Part shown: positions 2,685 through 11,145 of the stretch, in pieces
Position numbering within the stretch: the first letter of the stretch is position 1
Layout of the letters: each line of letters begins with the position of its first letter
Source of the DNA: Cyanobacteria bacterium UBA11153
GTDB lineage: Bacteria > Cyanobacteriota > Cyanobacteriia > Cyanobacteriales > Coleofasciculaceae
DNA: 11,359 nt
Direction of reading: 5' to 3'
Assembly (NCBI GenBank): GCA_003511885.1
Contig: DOIX01000423.1
Span: forward strand, 21,414 to 32,772
Notes under the pieces: model-generated
Database searches by the model: none
What the model was told of the DNA's origin: nothing
The model's input: the letters and a program-made list of their open reading frames with translations, nothing else
Translations under genes and position numbers: made by a program

Positions 2685-5600
2685 ATGAAAATTCTTGACT
2701 ATCGCATTACCGAACAACTCTACTCTGGTTCCCGCACTCAGGTTTATCGAGGAATTTCTGAGTCAGATGAAAAACCTGTTGTTCTCAAGGTACTTAAATC
2801 TGACTATCCAACTTTTAATGAATTAGTTCAATTCCGCCATCAGTACGCTATTGCCAAAAATCTAGATTTACCGGGAGTTGTCAAGCATCTCAGTCTGGAA
2901 AAATATCGGAATGGTTTTGCCCTAGTAATGGAGGATTTTGGAGGAATTTCTCTAGCCGATTACTACCTCCATGGAGAAGCTATCAGTTTAACAGATCTCC
3001 CAGAATTTTTCGCCATTGCTATTCAAATTGTCACCACCCTCCAAGAACTTTATCATCACCGGATTATTCATAAAGACATTAAACCACAGAATATTCTGAT
3101 TAACCCCCAAACTAAACAAGTTAAACTAATTGATTTTAGTATTTCATCCCTATTGCCCAGAGAGGAACAAGAAATCCAAAATCCCAAAATCCTAGAAGGA
3201 ACCCTAGGTTATATATCTCCGGAACAAACTGGCAGGATGAATCGGGGGATTGATTATCGGACTGATTTTTACTCATTAGGAGTAACTTTCTACGAATTAC
3301 TAACCGGACAACTCCCTTTTCAATCTAACGATCCGATGGAGTTAGTTCACTGTCACATTGCTCGCCAAGCAATTCCTCCGATTGAAATCAATTTAACGAT
3401 ACCGCTCATATTAAATGACATCCTACTCAAACTGATGTCAAAAACTGCTGAAGATCGCTATCAAACAGCTTTTGGACTCAAACATGACTTAGAAAAATGT
3501 TTAGAACAATTAGGAAATAACGGTAGTATTAATTCCTTTGATTTAGGGAAAAGAGATATCTCAGAAAGATTTATCATTCCGGAAAAACTTTACGGAAGAG
3601 AAACCGAAGTAGCTACCTTATTAACCGCCTTCGAGCGGATTAGTTATGGCACTAGTGAAATGGTGCTAGTAGCTGGTTTTTCTGGAATTGGCAAAACCGC
3701 CGTTGTCAATGAAGTTCACAAACCGATTGTCCGCCAACGTGGTTACTTTATCAAAGGTAAATTTGACCAATTTCAGCGCGATATTCCCTTTTCAGCTTGG
3801 GTGCAAGCTTGTCAAAATTTAATCCGACAAATCCTGACTGAAAGTAGCGATATGATTCAGGAATGGCGCAGGGAAATTTTATCAGCTTTGGGAGAAAATA
3901 GCCAAGTAATTATTGATGTTATCCCTGAGTTAGAACTTGTAATTGGCAAGCAGCCACCCGTTCCCGAATTAGAGGGAAGTTCAGCCCAAAATCGCTTCAA
4001 TTTACTATTTGAAAAATTTATCTGGGTATTTGCAACAGTTAACCATCCCTTGGTAATTTTTCTTGATGATTTGCAGTGGGCAGATTCAGCTTCTCTCAAA
4101 TTAATGCAGTTGCTCCTCAGCGATATAGATACTCGCTATCTACTCCTCCTAGCAGCCTATCGAGATAATGAAGTTTTTCCAGGACATCCCTTACTCCTGA
4201 CATTAGAAGAGATTCGCAAAGCTTCCGCAAAAGTCAATCAAATTACCCTAGCCCCCCTGGATCTCCCCAACTTGAACAGATTGATTGCTGATACTCTATC
4301 CTGTCCTCCGGAAAGTGCTAATCCACTGACAGAAACGATCTTTCAAAAAACTAAAGGTAATCCATTTTTTAGCAATCAATTTCTCAAGTTTCTCTATGAA
4401 GATGGCCTAATTATCTTTGATTTTAATCTGGGCTATTGGCAGTGCGACATTGCCAAAATTAGAGAATTATCAATTAGCGATGATGTAGTTGAATTTATGT
4501 CCAATCAATTACAAAAGTTACCCGAAAACACTCAAAATGTATTGAAACTAGCAGCTTGTATTGGCAATCAATTCGATCTAGATACACTCGCTATCGTCTC
4601 TGAAAAATCCTTATCCTCAACGGCTGCTGACTTATGGAGAGGCTTACAAGAAGGGCTAATTGTCCCCATCAGCGATCTTTACACATTGTATCAGGACTCA
4701 GAGGAATTTGCAATTAACGATTCCCTGTCATCGCTCGCTAATCATCAATCCATAGTACCCTATAAATTTCTTCACGATCGCGTTCAGCAAGCTGCCTATT
4801 TTCTGATTCCAGAAGATCGGAAAAAATCTACACATTTACAAATTGGCAGACTGCTATTAAATAATACTCCTTTCACGGAAAGAGGAGAGCGGATTTTTGA
4901 TATTGTCAATCAATTAAATATCGGGATAGAATTAATCGATAGTCAAACAGAAAGAGATGAACTAGCACAGTTAAATCTAATTGCTGGCAGAAAAGCTCAA
5001 TCTTCGACTGCATATAGTGCGGCGCAAAAATATTTAACGACAGCCATGGATCTTCTCAATCCCAATTCATGGGAAACTCAGTATAATCTCACCCTAGCAA
5101 TTTATGAATCAGGAGTGGAAACAGCGTACCTGAGTACCGACTTTGAGTTAATGGGAAAATGGGCAAATATTGTCCTGCAAAAAGCCAAAAATATCCTTGA
5201 CAAAATCAAAATTTACGAAGTAAAAATCCACACCTGCATGGCACAGGGCAAACAATTATCAGCAGTAAAAATTGGCTTGCAAGTCCTAAATTTACTCGGT
5301 GTAGTGCTACCAGAATCGCCCACATCTTTGGATATTCAGCGGGGAATGGAGGAAACCTCTACTGCTTTAAAGGGGAAGAAGATAGAGGAGTTAATTAATC
5401 TACCTGCAATGAAGGATCCTACCAAGTTAGCAGCGATGCGGATGCTATCGAGTATGTTTTCTCCTATTTATATTGCTGCCCCTAGCTTATTACCCTTAAT
5501 TCCGTGCCAACAGGTGAATTTATCAATTAACTATGGTAATGCCTCTTTCTCCGCCTTTGGTTATGCCAATTACGCTGCCATTTTAAATGCAGTAGTTCAA

Positions 5601-8054
5601 GACGTTGAAGTCGCTTATCAATTTGGTAAATTAGCTTTAAATTTGGTAGAAAAACTGAATGCCAAAGAACTTAAAACGAAAACTTTTGTCCAGGTAGCAG
5701 TATTCACACTCCATTGGAAAACTCACATTAGAGAAACATTTCCAATTTTTCAACAAGCATATCAAACTGGATTAGAAATTGGAGATTTAGAATTTACTAG
5801 CTATGCAGCAATGAATAAATGTGAATATTTATATTTCAGCGGCGAGCAACTAACAGAAGTAGAAAAAGAGATGACTACCTACGGTCATGCCCTAGCTCAA
5901 ATTAAGCAACAAGCAGTCTTGAGTTACACTCAAATATTTCATCAAGCTGTCATTAACTTACTCTTCAGTACAGAAGATCCCAGCCGTTTGTTGGGTAAGG
6001 CATACAATGAAGAGAATATGCTACCCCTGGATCAAACTGCTAATGATAGACTGGGACTTCACTACTTTTATTGCCACAAATTAATTCTCTGTTATCTGTT
6101 TGATGATTATCCGCAAGCCTTGGAAAATGCAGCTAAAGCTGAACTATATTTAGACGGTGCCACGGGATTATTTAATATACCTGTATTTCATTTTTATGAT
6201 TCTCTGACAAGACTAGCCATATATCCAAATGTCTCTCAAAGTGAGGCAGATACCCTGCTCCAAAAAGTGACAAGTAACCAAGAAAAGATGCAAAAATGGG
6301 CAGATAATGCCCCGATGAATCATTTGCATAAATTTGACCTTGTGGAAGGCGAAAAGCATCGGGTTTTAGGCAATTTTATCGAAGCCATAAACTCTTACGA
6401 TCGCGCGATTGCGGGAGCCAGAGACAACGAGTATACTAACGAGGAAGCACTCGCTAACGAAATCGCTGCCAAATTTTACCTTGCTTGGGGCAAAGAGAAA
6501 ATTGCCCAAGTCTACCTAACTGATGCCTACTACGCCTATTCCCACTGGGGTGCAAAAGCCAAAGTTGAAGACTTAGAAAAACGCTATCCCCAACTACTTG
6601 CCTCCATTCTTACCGAAAAAATCAACATCATCCCTGGCAAAACCATTGCCCAGACAATGACTGCCACCATGACTTCCACTGGTACAGAAATGTACGATTC
6701 ACTAGACTTAGCAACAGTTATTAAAGCTTCTCAAGCCCTATCAGGAGAAATTAATCTCTCTCAATTACTCTCAACTTTGATGAATATTGTCCGGGAACAT
6801 GCGGGCGCTTCCCAGGCAGTTTTTATTTTAGAAATAGATGGTGAATTGGAAATTTACGCTCAAGGCTTAGGAAAAGAATCAAATCGGGAAATTGTCCCAA
6901 TTTCTCGAAGTAATACCGTGCCAGTTTCGGCAATCAACTATGTTTGGCATACCTCAGAAACCTTAGTAATTAATAATATGAGTGATGACGCGACATTTGC
7001 GGCAGATCCCTACATTATTCAACACCAACCGAAATCAGTCATCTGTCTGCCCATTCAACACCAAGGGAAAACAATTGGTATTCTTTACCTAGAAAACCAT
7101 CTGACAACAGGTGCATTTACTAGAGACAGGTTGGAACTCTTAAATATCCTATCTTCCCAAGCTGCTATCTCCATTGAAAACGCTCGACTCTATCAAACTC
7201 TAGAAGACAAAGTTAAACAACGTACAGCCCAACTAGCTCGAGCTAATGAGCAAATTTCTGACCTCAATAAAAGACTCAAATCTGAAAATATTCGCCTGAG
7301 TGCTGAACTGGATCTCCTCAAACAAATGCAGCAATTAATTTTGCCCAAGGAAGATGAATTATCAGAAATTCAAAAATTAGATATTGCCGGATTTATGGAG
7401 CCTGCAAATGAAGTAGGTGGAGATTACTACGATGTTCTGGATATGGATGGCATTGTCACTATTGCCATCGGTGATGTCACGGGGCATGGACTCGAAAGCG
7501 GAATTTTGATGGTAATGACTCAAACAGCAGTCCGGACTCTTCAGGAAATTAAAGAAGGAGATCCAGTGCGCTTTTTAGATACTCTCAATCGCACTATTTA
7601 TAAAAACGTCCAGCGGATGAACTCTGACAAAAACTTGACACTAGCTCTCCTCAACTATGCTGATGGTATCATCAGTATCAGCGGTCAACATGAAGAAATT
7701 ATTGTCGTGAGAAAAGGTGGTAAAATAGAGCGGATTGAAACTCTAGATTTGGGATTTCCCATTGGGTTAGATGCCGAAATTGCTGATTTTATTAGCCAGA
7801 CAACTGTCGAATTAGCACCAGGGGATGGAGTCGTCTTGTACACAGATGGCATTCCGGAAGCCGAAAACATCGAGAAAAAATTCTACGGGATGGAAAGACT
7901 CTGTGGAGTGGTTTCCGAAAATTGGCATTTGAGTGCGATAGAAATTAAAGAAGCCGCGATTGCTAACCTCCGGGAATTTATTGGAGAAAACAAGGTGTTT
8001 GATGATATTACTTTGGTGGTGATGAAACTCAAGGATGAGGAGTTGGCGATCTAA
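2685..8054 (+). CDS. Ser/Thr kinase - AAA_16 ATPase - helical repeat - GAF - PP2C (SpoIIE-type) phosphatase
   Basis: This is a 1789-residue cytoplasmic signalling protein with no membrane segment. Residues 7-272 are a Ser/Thr kinase domain with K35, the catalytic loop HKDIKPQN (129-136) and EGTLGYISPEQTGR (171-184). DFG is replaced by DFS (150-152) and the Gly-rich loop is poor. Residues 300-560 are an AAA_16/AAA ATPase with Walker A GFSGIGKT (331-338) and Walker B LVIFLDD (456-462) plus LQWAD. Residues 760-1300 are TPR-like helices. GAF spans 1340-1500 and a coiled coil 1500-1553. A PP2C/SpoIIE phosphatase spans 1555-1783, with metal-site residues D1580 (VGGDYYD), D1597 (GDVTGHG), D1721 (YTDG) and D1774 (FDDITL). 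The first part matches the cyanobacterial HstK-like kinases, which usually end in a histidine kinase. Here a phosphatase takes that place. The following STAS gene is the probable phosphatase substrate. Domain calls are firm; the signal sensed is unknown. Confidence 0.93.
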   Translation: MKILDYRITEQLYSGSRTQVYRGISESDEKPVVLKVLKSDYPTFNELVQFRHQYAIAKNLDLPGVVKHLSLEKYRNGFALVMEDFGGISLADYYLHGEAISLTDLPEFFAIAIQIVTTLQELYHHRIIHKDIKPQNILINPQTKQVKLIDFSISSLLPREEQEIQNPKILEGTLGYISPEQTGRMNRGIDYRTDFYSLGVTFYELLTGQLPFQSNDPMELVHCHIARQAIPPIEINLTIPLILNDILLKLMSKTAEDRYQTAFGLKHDLEKCLEQLGNNGSINSFDLGKRDISERFIIPEKLYGRETEVATLLTAFERISYGTSEMVLVAGFSGIGKTAVVNEVHKPIVRQRGYFIKGKFDQFQRDIPFSAWVQACQNLIRQILTESSDMIQEWRREILSALGENSQVIIDVIPELELVIGKQPPVPELEGSSAQNRFNLLFEKFIWVFATVNHPLVIFLDDLQWADSASLKLMQLLLSDIDTRYLLLLAAYRDNEVFPGHPLLLTLEEIRKASAKVNQITLAPLDLPNLNRLIADTLSCPPESANPLTETIFQKTKGNPFFSNQFLKFLYEDGLIIFDFNLGYWQCDIAKIRELSISDDVVEFMSNQLQKLPENTQNVLKLAACIGNQFDLDTLAIVSEKSLSSTAADLWRGLQEGLIVPISDLYTLYQDSEEFAINDSLSSLANHQSIVPYKFLHDRVQQAAYFLIPEDRKKSTHLQIGRLLLNNTPFTERGERIFDIVNQLNIGIELIDSQTERDELAQLNLIAGRKAQSSTAYSAAQKYLTTAMDLLNPNSWETQYNLTLAIYESGVETAYLSTDFELMGKWANIVLQKAKNILDKIKIYEVKIHTCMAQGKQLSAVKIGLQVLNLLGVVLPESPTSLDIQRGMEETSTALKGKKIEELINLPAMKDPTKLAAMRMLSSMFSPIYIAAPSLLPLIPCQQVNLSINYGNASFSAFGYANYAAILNAVVQDVEVAYQFGKLALNLVEKLNAKELKTKTFVQVAVFTLHWKTHIRETFPIFQQAYQTGLEIGDLEFTSYAAMNKCEYLYFSGEQLTEVEKEMTTYGHALAQIKQQAVLSYTQIFHQAVINLLFSTEDPSRLLGKAYNEENMLPLDQTANDRLGLHYFYCHKLILCYLFDDYPQALENAAKAELYLDGATGLFNIPVFHFYDSLTRLAIYPNVSQSEADTLLQKVTSNQEKMQKWADNAPMNHLHKFDLVEGEKHRVLGNFIEAINSYDRAIAGARDNEYTNEEALANEIAAKFYLAWGKEKIAQVYLTDAYYAYSHWGAKAKVEDLEKRYPQLLASILTEKINIIPGKTIAQTMTATMTSTGTEMYDSLDLATVIKASQALSGEINLSQLLSTLMNIVREHAGASQAVFILEIDGELEIYAQGLGKESNREIVPISRSNTVPVSAINYVWHTSETLVINNMSDDATFAADPYIIQHQPKSVICLPIQHQGKTIGILYLENHLTTGAFTRDRLELLNILSSQAAISIENARLYQTLEDKVKQRTAQLARANEQISDLNKRLKSENIRLSAELDLLKQMQQLILPKEDELSEIQKLDIAGFMEPANEVGGDYYDVLDMDGIVTIAIGDVTGHGLESGILMVMTQTAVRTLQEIKEGDPVRFLDTLNRTIYKNVQRMNSDKNLTLALLNYADGIISISGQHEEIIVVRKGGKIERIETLDLGFPIGLDAEIADFISQTTVELAPGDGVVLYTDGIPEAENIEKKFYGMERLCGVVSENWHLSAIEIKEAAIANLREFIGENKVFDDITLVVMKLKDEELAI

Positions 8055-8083
8055 TTAACTGCGATCCCTACAAAATGTATAAT
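8055..8083 (+). promoter_or_regulatory. Candidate internal promoter for the GHKL-STAS pair
   Basis: TTAACT (8055-8060; 4 of 6 matches to TTGACA) is followed after 17 nt by a perfect TATAAT (8078-8083). It begins directly after the stop codon of the kinase-phosphatase gene, and transcription would start near 8090, about 50 nt before the next ATG. The two small regulators could therefore be made independently of the large sensor, as well as by read-through. No terminator hairpin is visible in this gap. Confidence 0.5.
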
Positions 8084-8141
8084 AATCTATAAGGATAATG
8101 GTGAAGTGGCAAAAATGTATTGACTTAGAAAAGGAAAACAG

Positions 8142-8729
8142 ATGACAGAAATCTTTGGAGACTTCATTGCTGAATTTCCACCTGAACAGGATTCCCTTGA
8201 ACTTACCTTTACCCCCAGCTCCCTCCCGATTGTGCGACGCTGGCGCAATAACCGACTATCAGCTCATTTTATCGCTGATTATTTCTCTAACTTTCTCCCA
8301 GTGAATGATGACGATCCAGAGCAGCAAAACCTGATTAAACAAAGTAAAGGTGCTGTCATATATGTTGCCAATGAATTACTGGAAAATGCCATGAAATTTC
8401 ATGAGGATGATTTTAGCTACAAAGTAAAATTTGGCATCCATTTTGTTGAAAATATTCAGGTTATCGCTGTAATTTTAGCGATGAATATTGTCAAGCCAGA
8501 AATGGCAGATTCTTTCAAAATATTCATCAAAAGAATTCTTTCCTCCGATCCTAAAGAACTCTATATCCAGCAGATTGAAAAAAGTGCCGAAGCAGAGGAC
8601 GGCTCATCTGGATTAGGATTGCTGACAATGATTAATGACTATGGTGCTAAGATTGGTTGGAAATTCGAGACAATGCCAGACAACCCAGATGCAATCGCAG
8701 TTACAACTCTAGTGCAAATTGCCATCTAG
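8142..8729 (+). CDS. Divergent GHKL-type ATP-binding regulator, RsbW/SpoIIAB-like (slr1658-type)
   Basis: This 195-residue soluble protein has two of the marks of a GHKL (Bergerat) ATPase. The N-box-like helix is ANELLENAMKF (76-86), with E78, E81 and N82. The G2-like segment is DGSSGLGLLTMINDYGAKI (153-171). The DxGxG (G1) box expected between them is not recognisable: the equivalent strand reads VIAVILAMNIV (107-117). The fold resembles SpoIIAB/RsbW anti-sigma kinases, and I recall related proteins annotated as the Synechocystis slr1658 family (DUF6272). An AAGG ribosome site lies 7 nt before the ATG. The gene starts 87 bp after the PP2C gene and is followed 79 bp later by a STAS gene, so a role as kinase or binding partner of the STAS protein is inferred. 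ATP binding is uncertain because of the missing box. Confidence 0.8.
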   Translation: MTEIFGDFIAEFPPEQDSLELTFTPSSLPIVRRWRNNRLSAHFIADYFSNFLPVNDDDPEQQNLIKQSKGAVIYVANELLENAMKFHEDDFSYKVKFGIHFVENIQVIAVILAMNIVKPEMADSFKIFIKRILSSDPKELYIQQIEKSAEAEDGSSGLGLLTMINDYGAKIGWKFETMPDNPDAIAVTTLVQIAI

Positions 8730-8756
8730 CTGGTTTAAGTAACTCCCAGATCCAGG

Positions 8757-8762
8757 TATACT
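8757..8762 (+). promoter_or_regulatory. Possible -10 element before the STAS gene
   Basis: TATACT matches TATAAT at 5 of 6 positions and lies about 50 nt before the ATG. The sequence at the -35 distance (TTTAAG, 8734-8739) is a poor match. The STAS gene may simply be co-transcribed with the gene before it. Confidence 0.25.
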
Positions 8763-8808
8763 AGCATTTGATCGCGTTTCACTCAAATTTTGATCGGGAA
8801 GCAAAAAA

Positions 8809-9162
8809 ATGGATTTTCAAGAAATTAAAACCCAAGACTACACCATTCAATACAATCCAGAATCGGTTACTTTCACCTTCCAAGGAGAACTTAGCTTGGG
8901 TGGCCCAGCAGAATATGAACCAATTGCCAAGTTATTGGAAGATGTCGCTAATCAACAACCACCTAGCATTACCTTGAACCTCAAAAAATTGGCATTTCTC
9001 AATAGTTCCGGAATCAGCCTCTTGTCCAAGTTTGCGATTGGCGTGCGGAAAAGGAAAACTATTAAAGTTTTAATTCAGGGATCTAGCGACATTCCTTGGC
9101 AGGAAAAATCATTGGCAAATCTAGAAAAACTCCTACCTAGTTTGAAGCTAGAACTACACTAG
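8809..9162 (+). CDS. STAS-domain protein, anti-sigma-factor-antagonist-like (slr1659-type)
   Basis: This 117-residue protein has a STAS fold: strand VTFTFQGELSLGG (20-32), a helix, strand ITLNLKKLAFL (54-64), then the NSSGISLLSKF loop and helix (65-75), and a final strand IKVLIQG (85-91). In SpoIIAA and RsbV the equivalent loop is DSSG and its second Ser is phosphorylated by the cognate GHKL kinase. Here S67 is the matching residue, with S66 before it and N65 in place of Asp. The protein would be phosphorylated or bound by the upstream GHKL protein and dephosphorylated by the PP2C domain of the large kinase-phosphatase (inferred). I recall the Synechocystis slr1658/slr1659 pair as similar. 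A weak GGGAAG site precedes the ATG. An overlapping frame starting at 8768 is a shadow of this gene. The output target is not in the window. Confidence 0.85.
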   Translation: MDFQEIKTQDYTIQYNPESVTFTFQGELSLGGPAEYEPIAKLLEDVANQQPPSITLNLKKLAFLNSSGISLLSKFAIGVRKRKTIKVLIQGSSDIPWQEKSLANLEKLLPSLKLELH

Positions 9163-9258
9163 AATCCAGGTTTAGTTGAGATGACAAGTCTTAGTAATAA
9201 TGGAATTGGCAAAATTATCCAGAAATGGATTTATGGATTTATCGGAATCTAAGGGTAA
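9163..9258. other. Convergent gap between STAS and zinc-ribbon genes
   Basis: The 96 bp between the two convergent stop codons has a tandem ATGGATTT pair around 9225-9238 but no clear terminator hairpin with a T-tract for either gene. Confidence 0.4.
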
Positions 9259-9447
9259 CTATACAGCAGTTTTGGGTTGTCGAAGTTTGGATTCTAAAGT
9301 ACTGACTAAACTGTCATACGGGAGTATTTTTTTCACTCCTGATACTGGCATCTCTTGCCGACAGGAAGTGCAAAACCAATATAAATTTTTCCTTTTGACA
9401 TGACGGAGTAAAGCCCCTCTGCAACAAGGACAATAATTAATTGACAT
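9259..9447 (-). CDS. Small zinc-ribbon protein, 62 aa
   Basis: The protein begins MSINYCPCCRGALLRHV and continues YWFCTSCRQEMPV. Two knuckles, CPCC (C6, C8, C9) and CTSC (C26, C29), 16 residues apart, form a probable structural zinc site, followed by a basic tail. I recall a family of short cyanobacterial proteins with the same CPCC...LLRHV...YWFCxxCxQEMP pattern and no assigned function. An AGGGG ribosome site (9454-9458) lies 6 nt before the ATG, which supports translation. A 67-codon frame on the opposite strand (9200-9403) lacks any recognisable feature and is rejected. The role is unknown; binding of nucleic acid or protein is possible. The gene is convergent to the STAS gene and is not part of that operon. 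Confidence 0.8.
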   Translation of the reverse strand: MSINYCPCCRGALLRHVKRKNLYWFCTSCRQEMPVSGVKKILPYDSLVSTLESKLRQPKTAV

Positions 9448-9460
9448 ATTTTACCCCTGA

Positions 9461-9480
9461 TTAAAAATAGATTATTTTAA
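9461..9480 (-). promoter_or_regulatory. AT-rich palindrome upstream of the zinc-ribbon gene
   Basis: AAAATA (9464-9469) and TATTTT (9473-9478) flank a GAT centre, 14 nt before the start codon's first base and just upstream of the ribosome site. Read on the minus strand it contains TAAAAT- and TAATCT-like -10 boxes. It could be a promoter core or an operator; this is pattern evidence only. Confidence 0.25.
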
Positions 9481-9532
9481 TTAGATCGACCTTCACACCT
9501 CACATATTTTCCCACTCAAGACTGTCATGATT

Positions 9533-9939: not shown

Positions 9940-11145
9940 CTAAGCATCATCAAGTGCAGCAATACCGGGGAGAATCTTGCCTTCGAGTAACTCTAAGCTA
10001 GCACCACCACCTGTAGAAATGTGACTCATTTGATCTGCCACACCCACTTTTTCTACAGCAGCAACAGAGTCGCCACCGCCAATAATTGTGGTTGCGCCTT
10101 TCTTAGTTAAATCTGCCATGGTATGAGCGATTGCTTCCGTACCAACAGCAAACTTATCAAATTCAAACACGCCCATCGGACCATTCCAAATTACGCTGCG
10201 GCAATCTGCCAAAGCATCTTGGAAAACTTTAACTGAATCAGGGCCAATATCCAATCCCATCCAACCATCGGGAATAGCATCAATACTAACAGTTTGGGAG
10301 TTAGCATCAGGAGAGAAATTATCAGCCAGCACCACATCGGTGGGCAATAACAAAGCAACTCCTTTCTCTTTGGCTTTGGCTTCCAAAGTTTTGGCTAATT
10401 CCAGCTTATCTTCTTCTACCAAAGACTTACCGACACTCAAACCACGGGCTTTGTAGAAGGTAAAAATCATCCCGCCGCCAATCAGTAGTTTATCTACTTT
10501 GTCCAACAGGGTTTCAATTACACCAATTTTGCTAGATACCTTAGAGCCGCCGACAATAGCAGCTAAGGGTTTTTGAGGATTTTCGATCGCGTTTTGTAGG
10601 TACTGAAGTTCTTTCTCAATCAAATATCCTGCCACAGAAGGACTCAGGTAGTGAGTAACACCCTCAGTCGAAGCATGGGCGCGGTGGGCAGTACCAAAAG
10701 CATCATTAACATAAACATCTGCCAGGGCTGCCAATTGTTTAGTAAACTCCGGATCGTTCTCTTCTTCACCAGCATAGAAGCGGAGGTTTTCCAACAGGGC
10801 TACCTGACCATTATTCATGGCATTAATCTGAGCTGCCACGATATCGCCGATACAATCATCGCACTTAACTACCGTTTGACCCAGTAACTCCGAGAGACGA
10901 GTTGCCACCGGAGTGAGGCGCAAGCTGTCTTTTACCTTGCCTTTGGGACGACCTAAGTGACTGCACAGAATCACCTTAGCCCCTTTTGAGATTAAATCCT
11001 GAATTGTGGGTAAAGTCGCCCGGATGCGAGTATCATCAGTGATAGCGCCACTGTCATCTAAGGGCACGTTTAAGTCCACCCGCACTAATACCCGCTTCCC
11101 TGCTAAATCTGACTCCGATAAATTTGCTACAGTTTTTTTTGACAC
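9940..11145 (-). CDS. pgk: Phosphoglycerate kinase
   Basis: Pgk interconverts 3-phosphoglycerate plus ATP and 1,3-bisphosphoglycerate plus ADP. It serves both the Calvin cycle and glycolysis in the cyanobacterial cytoplasm. The 401-residue length is standard. Motifs in order are VRVDLNVP (21-28), R41, SHLGRPKG (62-69), [14 protein letters not shown] (147-160), the nucleotide-site GGSKVSSKI (199-207), [13 protein letters not shown] (320-332), GGGDSVAA (356-363) and [15 protein letters not shown] (375-389). All substrate and nucleotide residues expected for the family are present. The start is a GTG (11143-11145) with an AGGAG ribosome site (11155-11159) nine bases upstream, and no better ATG fits the conserved N-terminus. 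It appears monocistronic here, with an inverted repeat after the stop and repeated CTCAATTG motifs upstream that may be regulatory. Confidence 0.98.

Follow-up and report, generated by a model that had tools for sequence, protein, structure and literature searches.

The SiaABCD system of Pseudomonas aeruginosa, a biofilm switch that activates second-messenger enzymes and not genes, is composed of the PP2C phosphatase SiaA, the kinase SiaB, the adaptor SiaC and the diguanylate cyclase SiaD. SiaC is reported to bind SiaD at two motifs, one around S50/Q54 and the other around S82/Q86, and phosphorylation of SiaC at T68 (in N67-T68-S69) blocks its binding to SiaD; the same text gives BgrV-BgrR and HsbA-HsbD as further cases in which STAS proteins control diguanylate cyclases (PMC8457831). 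Moreover, the title of PDB entry 3ztb refers to a stressosome that was adapted to second-messenger control. Among the cyanobacteria, disruption of slr1658 in Synechocystis was reported to cause a poorer recovery from iron limitation and a constitutive over-expression of pgr5 (available part of PMC7555055), and the HmpUVW switch of Nostoc punctiforme was described as having an unknown output (available part of PMC8256260). In this study, we analysed a stretch of 11,359 nucleotides from Cyanobacteria bacterium UBA11153 (the window; GCA_003511885.1, contig DOIX01000423.1, positions 21,414 to 32,772), in which three consecutive plus-strand open reading frames (ORFs) encode a PP2C sensor phosphatase (ORF 1), a Slr1658-family GHKL kinase (ORF 2) and a Slr1659-family STAS protein (ORF 3). 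We propose that they form a Sia-type partner switch, whose STAS adaptor would control enzymes that carry a coiled-coil docking motif and, in the case of the window copy, would do so in trans; the proposal as a whole is given a probability of about 0.5.

A conserved phosphatase, kinase and STAS protein switch

In a survey of 146 cyanobacterial genomes, in which slr1658 was scored against its curated cut-off, the gene was found in 32 genomes and 41 copies, two of which belong to the window genome. When a run was defined as up to five genes on each side, on the same strand and with gaps of at most 600 bp, a STAS gene shared the run with 38 of the 41 copies, a PP2C gene with 23/41 and a gene for a GGDEF or class III cyclase with 17/41, while a diguanylate cyclase was present at 13/41. 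In 40 control stretches taken from the same set of genomes, with 560 genes in total, there were no PP2C neighbours, four cyclase neighbours and none with the coiled-coil motif described below. The PP2C/slr1658/slr1659 arrangement is not a product of chance, and this is a real, conserved switch, the components of which belong to named but functionally open families. These results align well with the sequence-only reading, which had seen consecutive genes for a PP2C scaffold, a GHKL protein and a STAS protein acting as phosphatase, kinase and substrate: the ORFs, family models and predicted folds agree, the gene order is conserved among the cyanobacteria and the active sites are intact. It had also stated that no sigma factor gene is adjacent, and none is found in the window. 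Individual loci were compared in a set of 52 that comprised the 40 other survey copies, 12 loci found by protein similarity and the window, with L026 excluded because the ORF calling missed its slr1658 ORF; L023, L024, L070, L075 and L081, which had no STAS match in the retrieved stretch, were kept in the counts. In a contig from a deltaproteobacterial metagenome-assembled genome (L027:4056-6698), PP2C, slr1658-like and slr1659-like genes stand in the same order, and the contig ends right past the STAS gene.

The kinase had no HATPase_c match in the Pfam scan and scored 36.2 bits against PF19788, DUF6272 (cut-off 26.6), 256.1 against NF052618, slr1658_cyano (cut-off 200), and 222.8 against the slr1658 family model NF047703 (cut-off 100). 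Its predicted model has a fold like those of SiaB, UsfX and SpoIIAB; SiaB is the best structural match, which places the kinase with SiaB by predicted fold, and a sequence search against the PDB returned no relatives at E 1. ORF 3 fell under the Pfam STAS cut-off (19.8 vs 22.6) and exceeded that of the slr1659 superfamily, NF047705 (153, cut-off 100). Its predicted fold is that of a STAS domain, for which SiaC is closest with a lead over RsfB that lies within a tie, and its score against the anti-sigma antagonist model TIGR00377 is 23.0, below the cut-off of 53.45. The N-box residues NE..EN occur in all 52 slr1658 proteins, including that of the window (the box ends in KF in 36 and in KY or RY in the other 16), and NSSG occurs in 48/48 slr1659 proteins that score above 100 bits; the truncated STAS protein of L076 (89.1 bits) entered neither this count nor the tree. 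The nearest relatives of ORF 2 and ORF 3 are 75 to 85% identical over the full length.

ORF 1 encodes 1789 residues from the ATG, which is preceded by GGAGAG and is the likelier start, or 1795 from a TTG at 2667. Counted from the TTG, its Pfam domains are Pkinase (12-273), AAA_16 (307-494), GAF (1363-1503) and SpoIIE/PP2C (1595-1788), all over their cut-offs, and the long middle part had no match in the Pfam scan. The kinase domain has DFS instead of DFG (G to S), and the metal-site motifs of the PP2C domain are intact. A length-limited search found 1099 PP2C homologues; among the 120 listed of similar length, 80 have the kinase, AAA_16 and PP2C architecture, the window included. Next to slr1658, the kinase-AAA-GAF-PP2C form was found at 5/52 loci, the window among them, and the PP2C proteins at other loci are of the HAMP, dCache, response-regulator, PAS or ammonium-transporter types. 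This scaffold is one among several interchangeable sensors for the Slr1658/Slr1659 switch. The attached kinase, ATPase and GAF domains may control the phosphatase, as the sequence-only reading had assumed.

In L063:8885-11455 and L064:8829-11402 (G060 and G002), an ammonium transporter-PAS-PP2C fusion lies immediately ahead of slr1658 (the domains were scanned in L063 and assigned to L064 by similarity), and such proteins are a possible nitrogen sensor for the switch. L016 has a CHASE2-type sensor instead of kinase-AAA-GAF before its PP2C domain (6408-8537) and an extra PP2C fragment behind it (8567-8815); its PP2C is 81% identical to that of the window, and its N-terminal 410 residues are 46% identical to a protein of the window genome with a Pfam-matched CHASE2 domain (C385). 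Additionally, a gene for a urea transporter with EF-hands lies ahead of the PP2C gene in L078 (9897-11603), and a response-regulator-CheB methylesterase gene adjoins the PP2C gene in L062, L068, L069 and L085 (Pfam scan in L068, the others by shared cluster).

A coiled-coil motif on the neighbouring proteins

Recurrent neighbours of the pair that differ in their catalytic domains share a coiled-coil motif, DLEIxLETTxEHGDxIExxL (the EHGD motif), near the N-terminus. Its carriers are GGDEF proteins, class III cyclases, PAS-only proteins, a HAMP-like protein (161-163 residues) and histidine kinases. It is present in all 27 members of the neighbour clusters c3 and c4 and in 4/4 of the histidine kinase cluster; none of 12 proteins from four clusters that are likewise recurrent (the CheB-like, solute-binding, MinD-like and MscS-like ones) carries it. 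Cluster c3 consists of 13 GGDEF proteins and one class III cyclase; c4, initially taken as 13 class III cyclases, proved to hold eight of these and five PAS-only proteins.

A profile built from 21 segments and run on the 146 genomes found the motif in 27, i.e., in 26/32 genomes with slr1658 vs 1/114 without it, the lone match being a 22.9-bit fragment. The seeds came from 13 of the 32 slr1658-positive genomes, and with these removed, the motif was found in 13/19 vs 1/114. Among the genomes listed, three families had both states, with motif counts with vs without slr1658 of 6/6 vs 0/4 (f5), 1/3 vs 0/16 (f6) and 0/4 vs 0/1 (f9). The significance of the co-occurrence is not to be taken literally because the surveyed genomes are akin to each other and to the seed genomes. 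Of the 42 motif genes counted among the matches listed, 26 are no more than 6 kb away from slr1658. The other 16 are found elsewhere, in 11 genomes with slr1658 and in G117; some of them score weakly (21 to 26 bits), and the one in G005 contains a stop. Orphan slr1659 genes adjoin a motif protein in three genomes; in the one that was scanned (L182), this protein is a PAS-GAF-histidine kinase. These orphan STAS genes (L182:6102-8733, L183:3681-6311 and L184:4155-6736) have no slr1658 nearby. In L191:4389-7586 (G074:C69), a PP2C gene is immediately followed by a motif-bearing GGDEF gene with slr1658/slr1659 not alongside, and in L022:6511-7272 and L066:8986-9738, MinD/ParA-like ATPases adjoin motif-bearing PAS genes at slr1658 loci.

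The geometry of the motif is regular. Where it occurs in tandem, all 20 measured spacings are 25, 46, 53 or 60 residues, i.e., 4 modulo 7, which keeps the heptad phase, and the GGDEF domain follows the last copy at a distance of 23 in 11 of the 13 proteins that were measured and of 16, shorter by one heptad, in the other two (one further protein was not measurable). In a post hoc comparison, the spacing of 32 between the two SiaD motifs is also 4 modulo 7. We read the EHGD motif as a putative docking stalk for the Slr1659 STAS protein. That the coil serves Slr1659-type adaptors as a transferable docking tag, with a sensor end that is equally exchangeable, has in our view an even chance of being correct. 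If so, unrelated enzymes that carry the tag (diguanylate cyclases, class III cyclases, histidine kinases and PAS proteins) would stand under one phospho-switch, and one sensor could reach a range of second messengers as well as two-component signalling. On the input side, ammonium transporter, CHASE2, Cache, response regulator and kinase-AAA-GAF sensors would be exchanged on the same kind of PP2C.

We infer the following course of events. The Slr1658 kinase would phosphorylate Slr1659 at NSSG and so keep it off; the PP2C domain, gated by its attached kinase-AAA-GAF sensor, would strip the phosphate; dephosphorylated Slr1659 would then bind the EHGD stalk at the N-terminus of the effector or ahead of its catalytic domain; and this binding would order the effector dimer, be it a diguanylate cyclase, a class III nucleotide cyclase or a histidine kinase.

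The output of the window copy

In a tree of 51 slr1659 proteins, which was made with a quick method and in which many forks are weakly supported, the window STAS pairs with that of L016 (98). L017, L072 and L074 join them in a group of five rows (support 89), which is nested in a clade of 14 rows (98). L017, L072 and L074 have a class III cyclase gene (411-420 residues) between PP2C and slr1658, and L016 has a motif-bearing PAS gene after the STAS gene, its CHASE2-type PP2C replacing the kinase-AAA-GAF-PP2C form. The alignment of the window with L016 spans the STAS gene into the first ten or so PAS codons, breaks off and continues after a further 2.3 kb of the L016 sequence. We read this as a probable loss of the effector gene in the window lineage; the opposite polarity, a gain in L016, is also possible. 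If the local effector gene was lost, the window STAS would therefore act in trans. The genome assembly (437 contigs, incomplete) holds three motif proteins elsewhere on which the window Slr1659 may act: a PAS-class III cyclase of 475 residues (G000:C392), a CHASE2-PAS-PAS-class III cyclase of 991 residues (C385) and, at the end of a contig, a histidine kinase (C299). The N-terminus of the L017 cyclase had no close counterpart in a search of this genome (best 24.9 bits), and a cyclase or decayed cyclase within the window was likewise rejected (tblastn of the 27 c3 and c4 proteins, best E 0.17). The intergenic stretch 9259-9524 is 84% identical to L016 12514-12779 despite the differing genes around it, a case of conserved non-coding sequence, and the window genome has 36 class III cyclase domain matches, some with CHASE2, histidine kinase or receiver domains.

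Several observations weigh against the proposed switch with a trans effector. The window has no adjacent effector gene, neither a class III cyclase nor a motif-bearing PAS gene, and no diguanylate cyclase gene. C392 shares 57% identity, almost from end to end, with the cyclases that adjoin slr1659 in L018, L058, L059 and L061. The STAS proteins of these four loci lie outside the window clade, on the side where the second copy of the window genome falls; C392 may therefore serve the second pair, at C79, rather than the window. A motif neighbour is found in only 4/14 rows of the window STAS clade, and five genomes of this clade (G103, G113, G119, G139 and G145) lack a motif protein at the threshold used, which means that there must be other outputs; at the same threshold, G085 has slr1658 and no motif. 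Moreover, L068 and L069 carry the motif of the window subclade with STAS proteins outside the clade, which contradicts a strict co-divergence of the STAS protein and the motif. The motif profile found no SiaD in the PDB, so homology with the SiaD stalk is unsupported, and none was found by sequence. Finally, the change in pgr5 upon the loss of slr1658 also fits a transcriptional output. The output of the window copy may be in trans, lost or different.

Of these outcomes, a working switch with another output that lacks the EHGD motif, e.g., a membrane protein such as a mechanosensitive-type channel, is possible but rather doubtful. The five clade genomes above speak for it, as do the MscS-like genes after the STAS gene in L078 (5258-6913) and L085 (5662-7452; Pfam-scanned in L085, assigned in L078 by the same cluster) and the ABC transporter gene that follows the second pair at C79. 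However, an adjacent motif protein is found in all four of the nearest relatives of the window STAS, the window retains a remnant of a motif-bearing gene, and the channel and transporter neighbours are too few for a test. We consider it highly improbable that the module was orphaned by the deletion of its effector gene and is drifting without an output: the start remnant left relative to L016 and the lack of a close relative of the L017 cyclase N-terminus would agree with this, but the reading frames of all three genes are open and their active-site residues conserved, the second and third keep full-length relatives at the identity given above, and the genome still has three motif proteins. 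Coiled stalks are common ahead of cyclases, and the motif profile matched only generic coiled coils in the PDB, both of which would suit a mere dimerising stalk that does not bind the STAS protein. Such a stalk, compatible with the other alternatives, is nevertheless difficult to reconcile with the near restriction of the motif to slr1658 genomes, its presence beside orphan STAS genes and its joining to unrelated catalytic domains, and we hold it to be improbable.

A classical anti-sigma switch, in which Slr1658 would sequester a distant sigma factor until dephosphorylated Slr1659 sets it free, is slightly less probable still. The GHKL and STAS folds are also those of SpoIIAB/SpoIIAA and RsbW/RsbV, the slr1658 deletion over-expresses pgr5 constitutively (available part of PMC7555055), and sigma factors occur in 32/32 slr1658-positive genomes, with 8 to 15 matches each among those listed. 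The effect on pgr5 could stem either indirectly from a second-messenger output or from an anti-sigma function. On the other side, ORF 3 stays below the antagonist model, the kinase is structurally closest to SiaB and the recurrent neighbours of the pair are cyclases, not sigma factors. A BLAST search with 12 sigma proteins over the 52 loci and L026 (4-19 kb each), which could miss distant ECF types, found one sigma-like ORF, which lies outside the operon on the opposite strand, some 5 kb away from slr1658. The sequence-only reading had left the choice between a distant sigma factor and something other than transcription, and the latter is likelier. The Sia-type switch remains our preferred reading, and its features in the window are collected in Table 1. 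The gaps between ORF 1 and ORF 2 and between ORF 2 and ORF 3 are 87 and 79 bp. The minus-strand genes at 1233-2273 and 9940-11145 are presumably tsaD and pgk, judging by their sequence.

Table 1. Features of the switch in the window (positions in the window)
Feature	Position	Strand	Remarks
Sensor phosphatase: Ser/Thr kinase - AAA_16 - long middle - GAF - coiled linker - PP2C (SpoIIE family)	2685..8054	+	
Protein kinase domain	2700..3485	+	catalytic Lys, HKD and DFS present
AAA_16 ATPase domain	3585..4148	+	Walker A GFSGIGKT, Walker B LVIFLDD
GAF domain	6753..7175	+	Pfam
PP2C (SpoIIE) domain	7449..8030	+	metal-site motifs GGDYYD, GDVTGHG and C-terminal FDD
Slr1658-family GHKL kinase (SiaB-like, DUF6272)	8142..8729	+	
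Kinase N-box NELLENAMKF	8370..8399	+	NE..EN conserved
Slr1659-family STAS protein (SiaC-like), putative kinase/phosphatase substrate and adaptor	8809..9162	+	
NSSG, predicted phosphosite (N65-S66-S67-G68, start of second helix)	9001..9012	+	
Putative output-gene start remnant (ATG a few tens of bases past the STAS stop)	9200..9231	+	aligned to the first codons of the motif-bearing PAS gene of L016 (Limnofasciculus)

Comparison with known systems

Among the matches listed in a search of mainly open-access literature, no earlier description of slr1658/slr1659 as a cyclase switch was found. As far as this search shows, the fold-based Sia-type assignment, the multi-class docking motif and the missing local effector are new. 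Slr1658 has a published phenotype, yet no output was found for it in the literature searched; a docking motif that predicts the enzymes under Slr1659 control would make this question directly testable. Leptolyngbya Dgc2 was considered as well, and the available part of its report gives no link to slr1658 (PMC10581220).

The proteins of the window belong to the same NCBIfam families as Slr1658 and Slr1659 of Synechocystis sp. PCC 6803, above the cut-offs of the family models, and a phenotype (iron-starvation recovery and pgr5) is known there for slr1658 only, judging by the available part of PMC7555055. By description only, the locus also resembles HmpUVW of Nostoc punctiforme as a cyanobacterial phosphatase/STAS/kinase switch (available part of PMC8256260), and BgrV-BgrR, HsbA-HsbD and the 3ztb stressosome as cases of STAS-type control over second-messenger enzymes. 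The likeness to SpoIIE/SpoIIAB/SpoIIAA and RsbU/RsbW/RsbV, on which the sequence-only reading was built, stands for the PP2C, the GHKL kinase, the STAS substrate and the partner-switching logic. It does not extend to the target, which in those systems is a sigma factor, as the window protein falls short of the curated anti-sigma antagonist model, nor to the closest folds, since theirs rank behind SiaB and SiaC (with SiaC and RsfB within a tie).

The closest described counterpart is SiaABCD. The four roles, the gene neighbourhood in many relatives of the window locus and the predicted fold of the kinase are alike, the predicted fold of the adaptor is close to SiaC and RsfB within a tie, and the tandem, heptad-phased motifs on the stalk before GGDEF in the relatives compare with the two SiaC sites of SiaD. 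Unlike in SiaABCD, the window proteins score below the curated cut-offs for SiaA (57.2 vs 700) and SiaB (32.3 vs 85), the adaptor scores as slr1659/STAS, the sensor is of the kinase-AAA-GAF type, no SiaD-like gene is present at the window and the range of candidate effectors extends to class III cyclases, PAS proteins and histidine kinases. If our proposal is correct, the SiaABCD mechanism would reach beyond a single diguanylate cyclase of a pseudomonad and become a general means by which cyanobacteria wire sensors to cyclic AMP or cyclic GMP (cAMP/cGMP), cyclic di-GMP (c-di-GMP) and histidine kinases.
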